Assembly (NCBI RefSeq): GCF_010671565.1
Contig: NZ_JAABOQ010000008.1
Span: forward strand, 62,001 to 126,000
Source: Spongiivirga citrea
Lineage (GTDB): Bacteria > Bacteroidota > Bacteroidia > Flavobacteriales > Flavobacteriaceae
Direction: 5' to 3'
DNA length: 64,000 nt
The notes under the pieces were generated by a model. It had not been told where the DNA came from. It was given only the letters and a program-made list of their open reading frames with translations, and searched no databases. Below are positions 1 through 62,030 of the stretch, in pieces (position 1 is the first letter of the stretch; each line of letters starts with the position of its first letter). Made by a program: the position numbers and the translations under genes.

Positions 1-1
1 T

Positions 2-88
2 TTTATCCTAAGAGTTGGTGATATGCAGTATAATGCAAGTATCGCTAATCAGCTAAGTAAATTAAAAAGAGAATTTAGTATAAGTTAA
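2..88 (+). CDS. atpH: ATP synthase F1 subunit delta, 3' end only
   Basis: Only the last 28 codons are inside the window; the gene begins upstream. The visible tail, rich in Asn-Ala-Ser-Ile-Ala-Asn and Lys-Leu-Lys-Arg-Glu-Phe, is the usual C-terminus of flavobacterial F1 delta, which joins the catalytic head to the peripheral stalk of the ATP synthase. It is followed 44 bp later by atpA, the normal order (atpH-atpA-atpG) for this group. The call depends on the short tail plus this gene order. Confidence 0.85.
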
Positions 89-132
89 AAATCTTAGAAA
101 GGGCAACCGGACTAAGTTATATATCAATAAAA

Positions 133-1710
133 ATGGCAGAAGTTAAACCAGCTGAAGTATCAGCGATCTTAAAGAAACAACTATCAGGTTTTGAAGCAAG
201 CGCTTCTTTAGATGAAGTTGGAACAGTATTAACTGTAGGTGATGGTATTGTACGTGCTTACGGATTAGCCAACGCTCAATACGGAGAATTAGTTGAATTC
301 GACGGAGGAGCTGAAGGAATCGTACTTAACTTGGAAGAAGATAATGTAGGTATCGTATTACTAGGTCGATCTGTTGGAGTAAAAGAAGGATCTACTGTAA
401 AACGTACTGCTCGTATCGCATCTGTAAATGTAGGTGAAGGTATTGTAGGACGTGTAGTAAATACTTTAGGAAACCCAATTGATGGAAAAGGACCTATCGC
501 TGGTGAAACCTTTGAGATGCCGCTTGAGCGTAAAGCACCTGGTGTAATCTACAGAGAACCGGTAACAGAGCCATTACAAACAGGAATTAAAGCAATTGAT
601 GCGATGATTCCGGTTGGTAGAGGACAACGTGAGTTAGTAATTGGTGACCGTCAAACTGGTAAAACAACTGTTTGTATTGATGCGATCTTAAATCAAAAAG
701 AATTTTACGATGCAGGTGAGCCTGTATATTGTATATATGTTGCCGTTGGACAAAAAGCTTCAACTGTAGCAAACATTGCTAAAACGTTAGAAGAAAAAGG
801 CGCATTGGCATACACAACAATAGTTGCTGCAAATGCATCAGATCCTGCTGCAATGCAAGTATATGCACCAATGACTGGAGCATCTATTGGTGAGTATTTT
901 AGAGATACTGGTAGACCAGCGTTGATTGTATTTGATGATTTATCAAAACAGGCTGTTGCATATCGTGAGGTATCATTATTATTAAGAAGACCACCGGGAC
1001 GTGAAGCTTACCCAGGTGACGTTTTCTATCTTCACTCAAGATTATTAGAGCGTTCCGCAAAGATCATTAATAACGATGCTATTGCTAAAGAAATGAACGA
1101 TCTTCCTGATTCGTTAAAACCGATGGTAAAAGGTGGTGGTTCATTAACTGCATTGCCAATTATTGAAACACAAGCAGGTGACGTATCGGCATATATCCCA
1201 ACAAACGTAATTTCGATTACCGATGGACAAATCTTCTTAGATGGAGACTTATTTAACTCTGGTGTACGTCCAGCGATTAACGTAGGTATTTCGGTATCTC
1301 GTGTTGGTGGTAACGCGCAGATTAAATCAATGAAAAAGACTTCAGGTACATTAAAGCTAGATCAAGCACAGTTCCGTGAATTAGAAGCATTCGCTAAGTT
1401 CGGTTCTGACCTTGATGCAGCAACGTTGAATGTAATTGAAAAAGGTAAGCGTAATGTTGAGATCTTAAAGCAAGCTCAAAACGATCCGTTTACGGTAGAA
1501 GATCAGGTGGCAATTATTTACGCAGGTTCTAAGAACTTGCTTAAAGATGTTCCTGTAGATAAAGTGAAAGAATTTGAAAGAGATTTTATCGAATTCTTAA
1601 ATGCAAAGCATAGAGGAGTTCTTGACACGCTTAAAGCAGGTAAACTTACAGATGAAGTTACCGATACGCTTACAGCAGTGTGTAAAGATCTTTCAGCTAA
1701 ATTTAATTAA
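133..1710 (+). CDS. atpA: ATP synthase F1 subunit alpha
   Basis: Non-catalytic nucleotide-binding subunit of the F1 head, which alternates with beta in the hexamer that couples proton (or sodium) flow to ATP synthesis at the inner membrane. At 525 residues it has normal length. The Walker A motif GDRQTGKT is at residues 171-178, the Walker B region (ALIVFDD) lies near 270, and the alpha/beta signature with the arginine finger (GISVSRVGG) is near 390. The ATG start follows an A-rich leader, as is common in Bacteroidota, which rarely use strong Shine-Dalgarno sites. The operon is interrupted directly after this gene by a four-helix-bundle gene before atpG resumes. Confidence 0.99.
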
Positions 1711-1724
1711 GAATTTTTAGTTTG

Positions 1725-1752
1725 GAGTTCAGAGTTATGAGTTCAGAGTTTA
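1725..1752 (+). repeat. Four GAGTTnn heptads, left flank of the inserted 4HB gene
   Basis: Four tandem 7-bp units (GAGTTCA, GAGTTAT, GAGTTCA, GAGTTTA) sit between the atpA stop codon and the four-helix-bundle gene. The same heptad in the opposite orientation follows that gene (2092-2126), so the gene is bracketed by inverted heptad arrays. Confidence 0.8.
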
Positions 1753-1764
1753 ATTTTTTACTGA

Positions 1765-2100
1765 ATGAATAACGAAGATGGTCCAATAAGAAAGAAGAGT
1801 TTCGAGTTTGCTTGTAGAGTAGTTGAGTTTTGTGATGAGTTAAAGGCCGATAAAGATTATGAATTGGCATCACAATTACTAAGAAGCGGAACAAGCATTG
1901 GAGCAAATACTAGAGAAGCACAACGCGGAGTTAGTATTAAGGATTTTAAGAATAAGTTTGGTATTGCACTAAAGGAGGCTGATGAAACCATGTATTGGTT
2001 AGAAATTTTGGAAGCTACTGGAAGGAAAGTACCTGAAAATATGAAAAATGAATGTGAAGAGTTGATAAAAATTCTTGTCAAGATAATCAAGAACTCTTAA
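1765..2100 (+). CDS. Four-helix-bundle protein (S23/IVS-encoded family) inserted between atpA and atpG
   Basis: A 111-residue, mostly helical protein of the four-helix-bundle family first described from intervening sequences in 23S rRNA genes (S23/IVP, TIGR02436-like) and related to the Avd accessory protein of diversity-generating retroelements. Family hallmarks are SxQLLRSGTSIGAN near residues 36-52 and KEADETMYWLE near 70-80. The biological role of free-standing copies is not established. Context is odd: it lies inside the ATP synthase operon, co-directional, and is flanked by inverted heptad repeats (1725-1752 and 2092-2126). This looks like a small element or passenger that arrived by transfer and is now cotranscribed with atp genes. 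ATG 1765 is the first start after the left repeats. Confidence 0.9.
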   Translation: MNNEDGPIRKKSFEFACRVVEFCDELKADKDYELASQLLRSGTSIGANTREAQRGVSIKDFKNKFGIALKEADETMYWLEILEATGRKVPENMKNECEELIKILVKIIKNS

Positions 2101-2126
2101 CTCAACACTCATAACTCATAACTCAT
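2092..2126 (-). repeat. Five inverted GAGTTnn heptads, right flank of the 4HB gene
   Basis: Read on the minus strand these are five tandem GAGTTnn-type units (top-strand units AACTCTT, AACTCAA, CACTCAT, AACTCAT, AACTCAT, then a partial sixth). They overlap the last codons and stop of the four-helix-bundle gene and run almost to the atpG start. Together with the left array they form a long imperfect inverted repeat around the gene. Confidence 0.8.
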
Positions 2127-2137
2127 AACTTGAGAGA

Positions 2138-2998
2138 ATGGCGAACTTAAAGGAAATAAGAAACAGAATATCATCAGTATCATCAACGATGCAGATTACC
2201 AGTGCCATGAAAATGGTATCGGCAGCAAAGCTGAAAAAGGCGCAGGATGCAATTACCGCAATGCGCCCATATGCTGATAAATTAACTGAGTTATTACAGA
2301 GCCTTAGCGCTACACTTGATGCTGATAGCGGCAGTAAATTTGCTGAGCAACGCGAGGTGAACAAAGTGTTATTAGTTGCTATTTCTTCTAATAGAGGATT
2401 ATGTGGTGCGTTCAATTCGAACATCATTAAGCAAACAAGCTCTCTTATGAAAGAGACTTATGCTGGTAAAGATGTTTCTGTACTTGCTATAGGTAAAAAA
2501 ACAAATGATTTCTTCGAAAAAACAGGACAAGTAATTGCTAATAAAAGTGATGTTTATGATCAGCTTACTTTTGACAATGTAGCAAGTATTGCCGAAATGA
2601 TCATGGAGAAGTTTAACGAAGGCGAATTTGATAAAGTAGTATTGATTTACAATCAGTTTAAAAATGCTGCTACTCAGATTGTACAGTCAGAGCAGTTTTT
2701 ACCGATCGTTCCTATGTCGAGAGAAACTACTTCGAATGCCGATTATATCTTCGAGCCGTCAAAAGCAGAAATCGTTGAACAGCTGATTCCAAAGTCGTTA
2801 AAAACGCAATTATACAAAGCCGTTCGTGATTCATTTGCGTCTGAACACGGTGCGCGTATGACAGCAATGCACAAGGCAACAGATAATGCGACTGAATTAA
2901 GAGATCAGTTAAAACTTACATACAACAAAGCACGTCAGGCGGCTATTACAAACGAGATTTTAGAAATCGTTGGTGGAGCCGAGGCGCTGAACGGGTAA
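2138..2998 (+). CDS. atpG: ATP synthase F1 subunit gamma
   Basis: Central rotor shaft of F1, which transmits rotation from the c-ring to the catalytic hexamer. The 286 residues match the usual length. The N-terminal helix (LKEIRNRISSVSSTMQITSAMKMVSA, about residues 4-29) and the C-terminal helix (ASEHGARMTAMHKATDNA, around 230-250) that form the shaft coiled coil are both clear. It is the last gene of the atp operon here, 37 bp after the inserted four-helix-bundle gene and followed by a strong terminator. Expression must therefore read through the inserted gene and its repeats. Confidence 0.99.
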   Translation: MANLKEIRNRISSVSSTMQITSAMKMVSAAKLKKAQDAITAMRPYADKLTELLQSLSATLDADSGSKFAEQREVNKVLLVAISSNRGLCGAFNSNIIKQTSSLMKETYAGKDVSVLAIGKKTNDFFEKTGQVIANKSDVYDQLTFDNVASIAEMIMEKFNEGEFDKVVLIYNQFKNAATQIVQSEQFLPIVPMSRETTSNADYIFEPSKAEIVEQLIPKSLKTQLYKAVRDSFASEHGARMTAMHKATDNATELRDQLKLTYNKARQAAITNEILEIVGGAEALNG

Positions 2999-3025
2999 GT
3001 AAGACACAAAATATATTAGTACATT

Positions 3026-3057
3026 AGAGGCTCTTAACTTAGAGCCTCTTTTTTTTT
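3026..3057 (+). terminator. Intrinsic terminator of the atp operon
   Basis: A perfect 9-bp stem (AGAGGCTCT / AGAGCCTCT) with a 6-nt loop is followed by a run of T residues. It lies 28 bp after the atpG stop. Confidence 0.93.
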
Positions 3058-3095
3058 GGCATCAATTTTGAACTTTACTTTATAAATTAGGGATT

Positions 3096-3620
3096 ATGAA
3101 GATCGCAGCTATCATTACAAAATCAATAGGAATATTCGCTATACTTTTTAGTGCATCACAATGTGGAGGATATAAATTAGAAAAATCGGCACCGATGACA
3201 ATGGATGTTTCATGCCAACAATATATGGGCGGGCAACCTGGTTCTAGCGGACTCAATATCTATTTTGTATTACCAGATAAGTCGGTAAAGAATGTAACTC
3301 TTGATAGTGTTTATTTTAGAGGGCGTTTAGCGAAGCTGGAGTATCAGGATATGACAAAGTATAAAAGCACAAATAATCAATATATAGCTAGCTTTCCTCA
3401 GATTAAAAAGCCAGATATTATCTCAAGTGCAAATCCGGCAGATGAAGTTGGTAATAAGCCTCCTAAGGCGATGTCAAAAATCCCATTTGAATTAGAGAAA
3501 GATCAATGTGTTGTTAGCTACCAACAGGATGGTAAGACTAAATACTTCAAGATTGATAACATCAAGGAAAAGGAGATGTTGATTTACCCATCTAGCAAAC
3601 CACAACGGGATAAATTATAG
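3096..3620 (+). CDS. Hypothetical secreted or lipoprotein-like protein
   Basis: 174 residues, not recognised as a named family. The N-terminus has a hydrophobic signal segment ending ASQCGG near residue 23; this resembles a lipobox, but Gln at -1 is atypical, so a lipid anchor is possible rather than sure. The remainder is polar, with Lys/Pro-rich stretches and two further cysteines (in VSCQQY and DQCVVSY) that could pair in the periplasm. It stands alone between the atp terminator and the convergent dipeptidase operon, so the neighbours give no functional hint. Confidence 0.7.
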   Translation: MKIAAIITKSIGIFAILFSASQCGGYKLEKSAPMTMDVSCQQYMGGQPGSSGLNIYFVLPDKSVKNVTLDSVYFRGRLAKLEYQDMTKYKSTNNQYIASFPQIKKPDIISSANPADEVGNKPPKAMSKIPFELEKDQCVVSYQQDGKTKYFKIDNIKEKEMLIYPSSKPQRDKL

Positions 3621-3750
3621 TTTGCAATGGCAGTCCGCGGCTTGTTGTTTTTGTTGAATTCTAAATGAGTTGTTCAGTGATCAAGCCAAAAATGGTGTTT
3701 AAGTGATCTTTTGTGCTTCTTTGAGCATCTTAGTGTAACAGCCCGCAGAC

Positions 3751-4815
3751 TTAACTCCAAACCCGCTCCAAAAACCTAATAAAATTTTTAGACATTATGT
3801 TTTCAATGTCATCATGAGCGTAGCCCTTTTTTTCAAGCATTTTAGGCACTTTTTGAAGATCGGCAATGGTATCAAGATCTTTAGGACACTGTTCCTTGCC
3901 AAAGGCACCATCTAAATCAGTACCAATACCAACATGAAGACTGTTTCCTGAAAGTTGGCAAATATGATCAATATTGTCGATCATTTGATCTAGGGTAACA
4001 TTCATGTCTTCTGGGGTTGATTCTCCCCGAATCCAATTCGGAACCATCATCCAAGCATCCAAGGCGATACCGATAACGGCATCTCTTCGTATAAGTTCCT
4101 TTATTTGATCGTCGGCATATTGTCGGTTATGATTTACAAAAGCCCTACAATTGTTATGACTTGCCCAAACGGGACCATTGTACACATCCATTGTTTCCCA
4201 AAAACTCTGATCGCATAAATGCGTAGCATCCAGTATCAAATTAAGGGCTTCTATTTTTTTTAAAAGCGCCTTTCCTTTTATACCAATAGGCCCTACTGAA
4301 TCGGTACCGTAAGCATAAGTACCGGGGCCATAATGTGCCGGGCCAATTGCTCTTAGTCCTTGTTCAAAAGACCGTTCTAAATGATCGATAGTCACGATGG
4401 AGTCGGCACCTTCTAAACTTAAAATATAGCCGATCGGAGTCGAGTCAGTTGGCGATTCCCATAATTTTAAATGGGCTTGCAGTTCAGTATAATTGGTGAT
4501 TTTTACCATTTGGCCGACACGCTCCATTTCTTCATACCAAGCAAGCTGCCCCTGAGTTTGCGCCCAAGCTTGATTTGGAGAATTCCACCCGGGAAGCTCA
4601 CTATTCTTTTTCACATATCTCGCTATTTGAGTAGCGACGCAAAGTCCGATATTTCCTTTCCGCATTGCAGGTAACGAAACAGTATTATTAGCCCGATCTG
4701 GTTTATCAGTCATCCCTTTCTCGCTAGCTCTAATGTCGGCAACGGGCCATGTCAAATCCCGATTCCATTCTAAGGCATTCATTGCCAAATCTAAATGTGC
4801 GTCGAATATGAACAT
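3751..4815 (-). CDS. Membrane dipeptidase-type peptidase (M19, renal dipeptidase family)
   Basis: Zinc dipeptidase of peptidase family M19, members of which cleave dipeptides, often those with a D-residue in the second position. Expected metal ligands are all visible: HLD at residues 7-9, Glu in LSLEGAD (135), His in DATHLCD (199) and His in ASHNNCRAF (220), followed by a late GTDLDG segment. No signal peptide is seen, so a cytoplasmic enzyme is likely. It is the last gene of a four-gene minus-strand operon, 2 bp after the D-threonine aldolase-like gene. That arrangement suggests it releases D-amino acids from imported or salvaged dipeptides. Substrate is inferred. Confidence 0.93.
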   Translation of the reverse strand: MFIFDAHLDLAMNALEWNRDLTWPVADIRASEKGMTDKPDRANNTVSLPAMRKGNIGLCVATQIARYVKKNSELPGWNSPNQAWAQTQGQLAWYEEMERVGQMVKITNYTELQAHLKLWESPTDSTPIGYILSLEGADSIVTIDHLERSFEQGLRAIGPAHYGPGTYAYGTDSVGPIGIKGKALLKKIEALNLILDATHLCDQSFWETMDVYNGPVWASHNNCRAFVNHNRQYADDQIKELIRRDAVIGIALDAWMMVPNWIRGESTPEDMNVTLDQMIDNIDHICQLSGNSLHVGIGTDLDGAFGKEQCPKDLDTIADLQKVPKMLEKKGYAHDDIENIMSKNFIRFLERVWS

Positions 4816-48356: not shown

Positions 48357-51221
48357 TTATTGCTTAATAATTTTCTTTCTAATACTAAAATTAGAGACAG
48401 TACCTTCTAGACGAAGAAAGTAAAGGGAACTTGCAATTTTAGCAAGATTAGATATCCGAAGCTCACCATTGCGCATAGTAATCTTATCGTCTAAAATCAC
48501 ATGTCCGAGAATATCGACAATTTTAACTTTAAATACTTCATTCTCAAGTTCTGGAGGCAGATTAATGCTAATCTCTTCGGTAAATGGATTTGGAACTATC
48601 TTGAAACCTTCTAATTCATCATTATCTGTCTCAGTGTCATCGGTTGCTTCTTCGTCATCTGTTGTTTCATCTTCATCCGGTGTTTCATCACCATCCGTTG
48701 TTTCATTATCATCTGTGTCCTGCGCATCCTGACAGAGAGCAGTGCTAGTGTAAGTGTCATTATCAGTTTCAGTACCTGATAAATCAGTAATCATAGTAAC
48801 GTTACCAGGATTATCTTGTTCAAGTGGCGGCTGAGGCGGTGCATCTGCACCAGGTATGAGGATGAGTTCAGGAAAGTTATATAAGCCCTCTTTTGAAACC
48901 CAATCTGTTCGACCGCCTGAAAGCTCAAGGTCTCTTAAATAAATCGATACTATTTTATCGCCTACTAATTGCTCATTTACAAAGGTGGTAACATCCCATT
49001 CATACCAACCTTCACCAGAGTCTAAAGTTGTGGTACTAATTTCGACACCAACTTCTGTGGGCATATTATGGTAAATTAGATCTTCTTCTACCCAAGAATC
49101 ATCTTCTATTCCTAGTGCTGTAATATTATAGTTGTCTCCTGAACCTTTTCTGTAAAGCCGAACAATGGCCTGTTCAACTTCGGAGTGCATTGACTGTTGA
49201 AGACTAAATTTTAAAAAGGTTCGCCTATCCCTAAATTGATTACTGCCCATTCTTAATTCCCCACTACCTCCAAATGGTTCATCCTCACGATCGCTTACGT
49301 ATGTGTCATCTATAGGCCTTAAACTATTAGGGTTTGGAGCTGGCCAAGAAGGCGGCAACCTAAGTGGTGGACTCTGCAAAGATTTACCGGCTACATCTAA
49401 TTGAGCCAGATAGAGGTTTGGGGGACACAGAAAATCTGGGTCTATGGTTTCATGCCAATGATCTGAAGTAATGGAAGTGGTTTCATCTGTAGTTATTCCA
49501 ACCACTACATTGTTAAGGTTTTGGTCTGGATAGGATATGTTTTTTCCTGCTTTGATATTCCAATACACCGTATTTCGTCGAGAATCTCCTCCAAAACGCG
49601 AGTCTTCTCCTAAGTCAAATTCAGTGTAAAGATTGCTCCTATCACTGCCCGATTTATGTGTAATAACACCACCAACAAGAGATTTTACTTTAGAAAACAC
49701 ATTGTTATTAGCTCCTTGATGAGTCCCAATATCATGAGCCCATTGCCCGGTAATGAGCACGTCGTGTACCAAACAATTACTAGCACCATATAGAGTTATT
49801 CCGTAATGCCCAACCATATTCATCTGGTTTTGACGCAAGGGCCTTCGCTCATATTGGTCTAGAAGAATGTTCATAGTACTAATATGATCTCCACTTACTC
49901 GAAGCCCAAGATTGGCATTCTTAACAGAGATATTGCGTATCCAACTATGCTCTGCACCAGCAAAAATACCATTCGCTCCAGTACCGCTAAAATGTCCACT
50001 ATGTTGTTCCTCCCTAAACTCAAGGGTGAAGTTCTCTATACTACGGTGAGTCCCACCATTAAAGTTGATAAATCCTGCCCCTTGAGCGTGTGTATAATCA
50101 AGCTCGGGATAAATTTCACTTAAATTATTAGGAAACTCAAGTATGGTCTCATACATGTCCTCTCCTCGAAGCACAAAATAATCCTGATCATTAACTTGAA
50201 TCCAATCTTCAATTCTATACCGGCCATTAGGTACAAAAACAGCCATATTGTTAGGACAAGCCGCAATGGCATCTCTAAAGGCTTGGGTATCATCATTAAC
50301 ACCATCACCAATTGCACCAAAATCGAGTACATTAACTCCTACTGGCCATTCTGGGATAGCATCACCTTGCATATATCCTACATTTGAAAAGTCTTGAACA
50401 AGACCATTAGGGTCCCAAAGCTCACCGCTTTCTCCCCAAATATCAGTATTTTCACAAATCTCAGAGTCATTTACTGTAGCTGTCACTCGAGCTTGGTTAT
50501 CTACCCTGCCTAAATCAAAATCATCTTGTGTGATGGAATAATCCGCTTTGTAGATCCACGCCTCGTTTTCATCTAATTCGTTGTCTCCATCTATATCACC
50601 TTCTAAGTATTTTATTTCTACATAGGGATTGGGAGCTCGAAATAGGTAGTCTTCTACAATTATATTTGTGAGGGTAACATCACCCGTATTTTTCACTGTA
50701 TAGTTATATGTGATGATTTCTCCAACACTAAGACATCCATCATCATTAGCATCCTGTAGTGTGCTTTCATTAACAAGGGCGATTTGAGGTCCAGTTAATA
50801 AAGTTGCAGAATTAGGTTTAGTTGGGTTTTTACCACTAAGATTTTCTGATACATTGACCCATCTAGACTTAATTAGCGAAAACACAGACTGTTTTCTTGC
50901 ACTAACTTCTTCTAAATTATCCAGATTTACTGTTTTAAGGTTGTTGAAGGCAATTACATTTGTAGTATCTATGTCAAGAAGAGCGAGTGAGTTTTTATCA
51001 TTGCTGACCTCTGGCATAGATATAGTTGCCTTATTTAGATCAATATCTTCAGTTTTAATGCGGGTGTAAGCAGATATTTTTTTTTCTTCCAGTTGCTCTA
51101 AAGTTTGTGCGTAGCACTTCGTCGTAAAGTCTGATTTTACGAAACTAGGAATTAAGTATAGAAAACAGAAAAGAGTACCGTGAGTTAAGCGTAAGTAAAA
51201 CATTTTAAAAGAATTGGGCAA
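48357..51221 (-). CDS. Large secreted beta-helix protein with T9SS sorting tail
   Basis: 954 residues, multi-domain. N-terminal signal region (about 1-39); a DUF11/DUF7507-like conserved-repeat domain (GEIITYNYTVKNTGDVTLTNI, about 148-255); a pectate-lyase-superfamily right-handed beta-helix (VNVLDFGAIGDGVNDDTQAF, about 295-560); a DNRLRE disaggregatase-like domain (DDTYVSDREDEPFGGSGELRMG, about 655-800); a Glu/Asp/Thr linker (about 835-870); and a type A T9SS sorting tail (KIVPNPFTEEISINLP to the C-terminus, about 872-954). It is probably a cell-surface or secreted polysaccharide-active protein, but catalytic residues could not be identified. The neighbouring LytTR/propeller pair may control it. 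Confidence 0.9.
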   Translation of the reverse strand: MPNSFKMFYLRLTHGTLFCFLYLIPSFVKSDFTTKCYAQTLEQLEEKKISAYTRIKTEDIDLNKATISMPEVSNDKNSLALLDIDTTNVIAFNNLKTVNLDNLEEVSARKQSVFSLIKSRWVNVSENLSGKNPTKPNSATLLTGPQIALVNESTLQDANDDGCLSVGEIITYNYTVKNTGDVTLTNIIVEDYLFRAPNPYVEIKYLEGDIDGDNELDENEAWIYKADYSITQDDFDLGRVDNQARVTATVNDSEICENTDIWGESGELWDPNGLVQDFSNVGYMQGDAIPEWPVGVNVLDFGAIGDGVNDDTQAFRDAIAACPNNMAVFVPNGRYRIEDWIQVNDQDYFVLRGEDMYETILEFPNNLSEIYPELDYTHAQGAGFINFNGGTHRSIENFTLEFREEQHSGHFSGTGANGIFAGAEHSWIRNISVKNANLGLRVSGDHISTMNILLDQYERRPLRQNQMNMVGHYGITLYGASNCLVHDVLITGQWAHDIGTHQGANNNVFSKVKSLVGGVITHKSGSDRSNLYTEFDLGEDSRFGGDSRRNTVYWNIKAGKNISYPDQNLNNVVVGITTDETTSITSDHWHETIDPDFLCPPNLYLAQLDVAGKSLQSPPLRLPPSWPAPNPNSLRPIDDTYVSDREDEPFGGSGELRMGSNQFRDRRTFLKFSLQQSMHSEVEQAIVRLYRKGSGDNYNITALGIEDDSWVEEDLIYHNMPTEVGVEISTTTLDSGEGWYEWDVTTFVNEQLVGDKIVSIYLRDLELSGGRTDWVSKEGLYNFPELILIPGADAPPQPPLEQDNPGNVTMITDLSGTETDNDTYTSTALCQDAQDTDDNETTDGDETPDEDETTDDEEATDDTETDNDELEGFKIVPNPFTEEISINLPPELENEVFKVKIVDILGHVILDDKITMRNGELRISNLAKIASSLYFLRLEGTVSNFSIRKKIIKQ

Positions 51222-61846: not shown

Positions 61847-62030
61847 AGTAACATATTGATTGGCACAAGATAGTATTTGTTGTGTTAGGAAATTGTTTCC
61901 AGATTGAAAAAAGAAGCCCGAGTTAGTAACATTTAGATAACTGTTTTATTACTGATACTTCATTTTTGGTTAACCAACGCTTTACAGTATCACGGTTTCT
62001 TTGCAGCGGTAATTATTTGTAATACTTAAT

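Follow-up and report, generated by a model that had tools for sequence, protein, structure and literature searches.

A four-helix-bundle gene between inverted heptad arms at the atpA-atpG junction of Spongiivirga citrea, and similarly armed genes in other bacteria

The window analysed is a stretch of 64,000 nucleotides from Spongiivirga citrea (NZ_JAABOQ010000008.1, positions 62,001 to 126,000), located on contig C16 of an assembly (handle G000) of 17 contigs and 4.15 Mb. A four-helix-bundle (4HB) ORF of 111 aa, at 1765-2100 on the plus strand, sits between atpA and atpG, both of which are named from a reading of their proteins. The features of the locus are as follows:

133..1710, plus strand: host gene atpA
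1711..2137, plus strand: whole element from the atpA stop to the atpG start, 427 nt (26 empty junctions measure 3-138 nt here)
1719..1752, plus strand: 5′ arm of GAGTTnn heptads, four of them at 1725-1752; G-rich strand
1765..2100, plus strand: 4HB gene (TIGR02436 / PF05635), in the hairpin loop
2092..2130, plus strand: 3′ arm of inverse heptads, AACTCnn with one CACTCAT unit; overlaps the last codons and stop of the 4HB gene
2138..2998, plus strand: host gene atpG

The first-pass annotation of this DNA described four GAGTTnn heptads to the left of the gene and five in inverse orientation to the right. The left array is as described (GAGTTCA, GAGTTAT, GAGTTCA and GAGTTTA at 1725-1752). The right array has its five units at 2092-2126 (AACTCTT, AACTCAA, CACTCAT, AACTCAT and AACTCAT), with the qualification that one of them, CACTCAT, is imperfect. 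The reported overlap of the right array with the stop codon holds, as the TAA at 2098-2100 falls within the heptads. The arms pair over 1719-1750 and 2099-2130 at 78%, the longest inverted repeat reported in 1500-2400. It had further been suggested that the arrays could fold into an RNA hairpin, and the predicted fold of 1711-2137 agrees with this, being closed by the arms (MFE -94.3, z -2.46, none of 100 shuffles being its equal). Within the 64 kb, the right array alone passes a lag-7 identity of 0.69 across 42 nt. The top-scoring tandem array of the window is an 18-base repeat of 4.3 copies at 48637-48713. The frames read from the ORF list show that, besides the 4HB ORF, the 427-nt unit contains short, overlapping frames on the antisense strand; no transposase and no RT was found among them.

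The identity of the gene is borne out by profile matches of its protein to TIGR02436 (E 2.6e-29; 101.6 bits, exceeding the cut-off of 24) and to PF05635 (E 1.9e-22; 79.9 bits, exceeding the cut-off of 33.8). The AlphaFold2 model of the protein consists of four long helices, with a mean pLDDT of 93.6. It matches two deposited structures: 2GSC, entered as a conserved hypothetical protein, and 2RLD (BT_0352), entered as a protein of unknown function, with 45-47% identity in the aligned columns. The fold match to Avd (4DWL) is weak, with an E value of 0.8. Estimates of dN/dS are 0.04-0.05 in the four closest pairs and have a median of 0.14 over 46 pairs; L137 was classed as intact in this analysis, as its stop lies outside its best BLAST piece. 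By this measure, the 4HB protein is under strong purifying selection. Among the best 30 loci opened, six of the 22 copies at the atp site carry stops and two further copies match only partly. TIGR02436 genes were present in 114 of the 148 genomes sampled from Bacteroidota.

An rRNA location was considered for the element and rejected. It lies between atpA and atpG, there is no Rfam match in positions 1-4200 of the window, and no rRNA was found near the 20 named 4HB loci that were scanned out of 80.

The flanking arms were measured by means of an arm score, defined as the best local alignment between the 200 nt before the profile match and the reverse complement of the 200 nt after it. The element of the window scores 18, compared with a maximum of 17 among 323 control genes taken from twenty 20-kb pieces of 20 genomes; four of these controls score at least 16 and none reaches 18. 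Inverted arms with a score of at least 16 surround 147 of the 200 4HB genes examined. Within the same family or order, own genome included, the count is 72 of 92 (25 of 32 in the first set and 47 of 60 in the second; Fisher p 1e-56 against the 4 of 323 controls). These 92 genes comprise three from the source genome, 29 best matches (one per genome) and 60 hand-picked matches, taken high-scoring first and with rows containing internal stops and atpA-atpG copies left out. A phylum sample of 30, which includes five genomes of the window’s own family, gives 17. The count is 58 of 78 for named loci, which come from a wide range of phyla, among them Proteobacteria, Acidobacteria, Planctomycetes, Firmicutes, Cyanobacteria, Spirochaetes, CPR and Bacteroidota; these 78 represent the best 80 of at least 577 confirmed candidates, minus L284 and L309, which are too near a contig end, and the set leans to the commonest branch of the 4HB family, with some members from Bacteroidota. 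All six cyanobacterial plasmid copies opened, out of 22 records matched, have arms with scores of 21-32.

The 147 armed elements have a median arm of 36 nt and a median span of 470 nt. The other 53 of the 200 genes score below 16 and some are without any arms (L098, L120, L237, L243); L098 and L237 are identical, which means that one unarmed element is counted twice. The gene-flank and cross-pair controls were relied on because the “outer flank” control is likely mostly coding sequence. Judged by the arm score, the armed layout surrounds most of the TIGR02436 genes sampled. It is thus a general property and not one confined to the atp operon.

The arms have a marked period. Among lags 4-11, the best period is lag 7 in 117 and lag 8 in 23 of the 147 armed elements, as opposed to lag 7 in five of 47 control arms; elements scoring below 16 were left out of this count and of the polarity and wobble counts given below. 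Flank identity at lag 7 is 0.42 and 0.40 in the two family/order sets, 0.41 in the named set and 0.34 in the phylum sample. It echoes at lags 14 and 21, most other lags having values of 0.26-0.33. The heptad word differs among elements, yet agrees across both arms of one element. In the named set, the mean arm match is 21.0 for own pairs and 9.7 for cross pairs. Words also recur: of the 32 right arms in the first set, the element’s own ranks first as a match in 12 cases and within the top three in 24. The 5′ arm is G-rich in 131 of the 147 armed elements, C-rich in 13 and equal in three; the dominant words have AGT or TAG in 84 of 145 cases and the complements ACT or CTA in nine. The cyanobacterial 4HB arms L266, L282 and L381 (Nostoc, Nodularia and Calothrix) are built of GGGTGTA-type heptads.

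Two further 4HB genes are found in the source genome, in the ffh-folD and rimM-methyltransferase gaps (names from protein reading). Their inverted period-7 arms are of the CAGTnnn and AATCCCAA type. GAGTTnn heptads had been proposed as a mark by which other 4HB genes could be found. This idea of a universal mark was rejected, as other words are used at the genome’s own other two 4HB genes; in addition, only one of its 11 GAGTTnn-triplet sites is at a 4HB gene, and one of the other 10 is a solo hairpin.

Several other arrays are worth describing. A solo GAGTTnn hairpin at L029:1474-1530 (G000:C13) has no 4HB gene and lies 5′ of a small ORF and, by eye, an rRNA-adenine-dimethylase-like ORF. A one-armed GAGTTAT array of at least 12 copies is present at L018:1501-1590 (G000:C12, about 593997-594085), and a one-armed AAGTGTT array of many copies at L360, in a rimM-methyltransferase gap. 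Neither has a 4HB gene or a visible second arm, and it is possible that both are scars or slippage expansions. Another genome, G007, holds 17 4HB matches in 3.3 Mb and has no RVT_1 match.

The first-pass annotation had proposed that relatives be searched for empty alleles, and these were readily found. The atpA-atpG junction was read in 29 relatives, of which three have a 4HB gene (two with stops) and 26 are empty, with 3-138 nt between the host genes. The empty sites are too divergent for the base-level alignment that a target-site duplication would require. The other two sites are also mostly unfilled, with a 4HB gene in three of 27 adjacent ffh-folD pairs and in two of 21 adjacent rimM-methyltransferase pairs, one more of the latter having a decayed remnant by eye. 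The long ffh-folD gap of L331 is an artefact of a short ffh alignment. At rimM-methyltransferase, the host genes overlap in eight of the 21 adjacent pairs, and four gaps of 475-1355 nt hold other sequence.

Empty junctions at atpA-atpG are not always featureless. A hairpin scoring at least 9 is present in 17 of the 26, and 9 of these 17 have period-7 arms. Heptad hairpins scoring at least 11 occur in eight of the 26 compared with seven of 166 control spacers (p 1.3e-4); all seven were counted, most of them looking A/T-rich or like terminator stems by eye. Across the family, 69 of 299 genomes have a 4HB match at E <= 1e-20, and the best 30 of these loci, when opened, lie at atpA-atpG in 22 cases (own included) and elsewhere in eight. 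At least 17 changes between presence and absence are counted on an AtpG tree whose 48 rows over-sample the carriers. From these comparisons, the 4HB gene at atpA-atpG is scattered over the family, with some copies decayed and some empty junctions keeping a solo heptad hairpin.

The history of the gene can be followed through the words of its arms. The 22 atp-site arms were assigned by eye to the groups GAGTT (14), GAATT (7) and GACTT (1), with both sides alike; the arms of L141 are weak (score 7). When left and right arms from different genomes are compared, the match is 16.0 if they belong to one word group and 9.9 if they do not. Quick trees were built for the 4HB gene and for the host genes. 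The 4HB tree places the GAATT copies in a single clade (SH-aLRT 98), whereas on the atpA+atpG tree they are polyphyletic, with seven word changes and rejection of a single clade (AU p 3e-27). Three host clades are in turn rejected on the 4HB tree (p 7.5e-5, 8.4e-4 and 3.0e-4). Since the GAATT copies are one clade on the first tree and polyphyletic on the second, gene and arms appear to travel together horizontally into the same site. On the evidence of these trees, transfer between genera has brought the two together into the same atpA-atpG junction. The earlier view of repeats and gene as a unit is therefore sustained, in that the 4HB gene has the same history as its arm word and a different one from the host genes.

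This bears directly on the simplest account, that of an ordinary vertically inherited operon gene with decorative repeats. The Mantel correlation between 4HB and AtpG distances is weakly positive (r 0.23, p 0.066) and counts in its favour. It is opposed by the two-way incongruence of the trees (the GAATT clade and the three host clades), by the presence/absence changes on the carrier-rich tree and by the empty sites, including the eight rimM-methyltransferase pairs with overlapping genes. The account is scarcely credible, and vertical inheritance at atpA-atpG is to be taken as refuted by these phylogenies unless the trees are badly misled.

Transfer seems to be mostly into the same site, because close copies in different genomes share their neighbours and those within a genome share none. 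Both neighbours are shared in 12 of the 13 closest cross-genome pairs; the exception, L173/L174 (78% identical), could be a move to a new site. The closest copies within a genome have no shared neighbours in six of six cases. The within-genome copies fetched are old, at most 63% identical, the comparison covering 11 of the 17 copies of G007 and leaving out its atpA-atpG copy. Recent bursts of transposition were rejected for the copies fetched. The mobility first proposed for the element is thus retained as horizontal transfer into the same site, and not as recent jumping within a genome, of which the fetched copies give no sign.

The last 200 bp of atpA were compared in 14 pairs with unusually similar 4HB genes, picked for high 4HB identity and mutually non-independent. 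Identity is 0.65-0.72 in 12 of the 14 pairs shown, with a median of 0.71. Long recombination tracts are not seen on the atpA side, because the atpA end is no more alike in such pairs; the start of atpG is too conserved to show them.

These findings can be set against the possibility of a useful host gene whose spread depends on DNA uptake, followed by ordinary homologous recombination at the conserved flanks of operons. Its heptad arms would then be only insulating or regulatory spacer hairpins, which also occur without the gene. Such a role would suit the purifying selection on the protein, the sharing of sites by close copies in different genomes and the solo heptad hairpins at the same junction. 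It would also suit the rarity of the gene on mobile replicons, as one query protein matched 22 of 72,556 plasmid records and 0 of 50,697 phage records; carriage by plasmid or phage was rejected on these counts. The atpA ends, which are no more alike in similar-4HB pairs, tell against it, as do the control genes and spacers, seldom armed in this manner, and the recurrence of the arms across many phyla. A host gene of this type is considered rather improbable.

The orientation of the gene and the pairing of its arms bear on whether the element acts as RNA or as DNA. Of the 117 4HB genes in the window’s phylum for which both neighbours were called, 111 are flanked by two co-directional genes, compared with 188 of 316 controls (p 1e-14). 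As judged by this gene order, the 4HB gene nearly always reads along the operon that it interrupts. The named set has little operon-sense bias (50 of 69, p 0.055). Two of the six cyanobacterial plasmid copies opened are antisense to both neighbours; one lies in a ribonucleotide reductase operon. The mismatches between arms comprise 171 of G-U type and 261 of A-C type. There is no sign that selection preserves RNA wobble pairing, as G-U mismatches are not commoner than the A-C type; an A-over-T excess on the sense strand may explain part of the missing preference.

A mechanism at the DNA level is kept in play because the wobble preference is missing and antisense copies exist. The arms would act as cruciform or ssDNA hairpins and would be kept alike by template switching between them and by heptad slippage. 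This hairpin would be the substrate of the 4HB protein, or of a Y1 transposase in trans, as in REP/RAYT. That both arms switch word together is in keeping with this mechanism, as is the correlation of Y1_Tnp count with 4HB count over 60 genomes (rho 0.48). However, genome size correlates with 4HB count as well (rho 0.54), five genomes with at least five 4HB copies are without a Y1_Tnp match, and the strong operon-sense bias in the window’s phylum is difficult to reconcile with it. A DNA hairpin is held to be rather unlikely as the basis of the element.

The first-pass annotation also hinted at a retroelement. A DGR-related element moved by an RT in trans would be in accord with the resemblance of PF05635 to Avd (PMC10053308) and with the weak fold match to 4DWL. 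Among RTs of the kind that RVT_1 detects, matches occur in 18 of 60 genomes, with a rho of 0.06 against 4HB count; 13 genomes with at least five 4HB copies have no RVT_1 match. The presence of RVT_1 does not track copy number, for which reason RT-driven mobility was rejected. The hint is not substantiated by any sign of RT dependence in the RVT_1 counts, and this origin is highly improbable.

The reading that is favoured, with slightly better than even confidence, is that of a 0.43-kb hairpin-armed cassette that is transferred with its arms and acts as an mRNA counterpart of the rRNA IVS. Upon transcription, the heptad arms would form a long duplex. RNase III, by analogy with the IVS, would cut this duplex, and processing of the operon message would make the insertion tolerable. 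The 4HB protein, which is pentameric in a relative of solved structure, may bind the heptad duplex, and this binding could favour the keeping or spreading of the element. Entry into a new genome might occur by short-tract recombination after DNA uptake, or by homing at a pre-existing hairpin. Excision by RNase III and the route of transfer are both inferred. The missing G-U preference, the antisense plasmid copies, the weak sense bias of the named set and the 53 of 200 genes scoring below 16 are points against the mRNA cassette, as are the lack of rRNA at the 20 named loci scanned, the recurrence of words among elements and the age of the within-genome copies fetched.

A wider proposal is made more tentatively, at somewhat less than even confidence. 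The armed genes could constitute a bacteria-wide class of homing-like selfish elements in mRNA operons, the heptad words of which co-evolve with the 4HB protein that recognizes them. Orphan heptamer repeats (cyanobacteria, Xanthomonas, Beggiatoaceae, Bacteroidota) would derive from such elements, as arms or scars, with the rRNA IVS as one specialised branch. In the portions of the literature consulted, TIGR02436 genes are discussed with rRNA IVS and DGRs alone, and heptamer repeats form a separate observation. Joining the two would give the 4HB family a signature, that of matching inverted heptads, by which intact elements could be separated from scars. It would also predict that RNase III processes essential operons and that the 4HB protein recognizes the arm word.

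Among known systems, REP/BIME palindromes with RAYT are small, intergenic, non-autonomous hairpins. The arms of the window differ from them in being heptad arrays that carry a gene, and some copy-rich genomes are without a Y1_Tnp match. PF05635 is common near DGRs and is related to Avd (PMC10053308). The likeness to DGR Avd lies in this related four-helix protein; the window’s unit differs in that no RT was found in it and the fold score is weak. The source genome’s two RVT_1 matches are on another contig, C10, with none beside the window’s 4HB gene.

Heptamer repeats have been described in several lineages. TAACTGA heptamers are reported from Beggiatoaceae, cyanobacteria and five Bacteroidetes (PMC4679880); the window’s word is GAGTTnn / AACTCnn, and not TAACTGA. 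Two Xanthomonas genomes have 70 and 75 inverted pairs of GGGAATC, and Nostoc has GGGGA(T/C)T heptamers (PMC4692102). Heptads are also described in Geobacter (PMC2700814). These repeats resemble the arms in being tandem heptamers, largely intergenic and present in several phyla. They differ in that the accounts given in the available parts of PMC4679880, PMC4692102 and PMC2700814 do not include a 4HB gene; the terms “four helix” and “S23” are absent from the main text of PMC4679880 and PMC4692102. In the sections of open-licence literature searched, no published link between heptamer repeats or heptad arms and 4HB genes was found. The heptanucleotide repeats published for cyanobacteria may represent arms or scars of 4HB elements.

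Genes of this family have been recorded under other headings. The 23S rRNA IVP is mentioned in the legend of a figure in a survey of rare CRISPR systems (PMC10910872). In two F. columnare strains, a 4HB gene that lies between the genes for guanylate kinase and a nicotinate-nucleotide adenylyltransferase is listed among phage elements (PMC5524665).

The 23S rRNA IVS, which is excised by RNase III, has a terminal inverted repeat that encloses an ORF in its loop (PMC4990558). The IVS of C. burnetii is 428 nt in length with an ORF under reductive evolution, and the Xanthomonas 4HB relative is a homopentamer (PMC4990558). The window’s element is unlike the IVS in that it resides in a protein operon, its arms are tandem heptads with a varying word, and its excision by RNase III is a proposal. 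The two are alike in protein family, looped ORF, length of about 0.43 kb and sporadic distribution (PMC4990558). The IVS is the natural model for the hairpin-armed cassette because the two share the protein family and the placement of the ORF, in a loop closed by a terminal inverted repeat.
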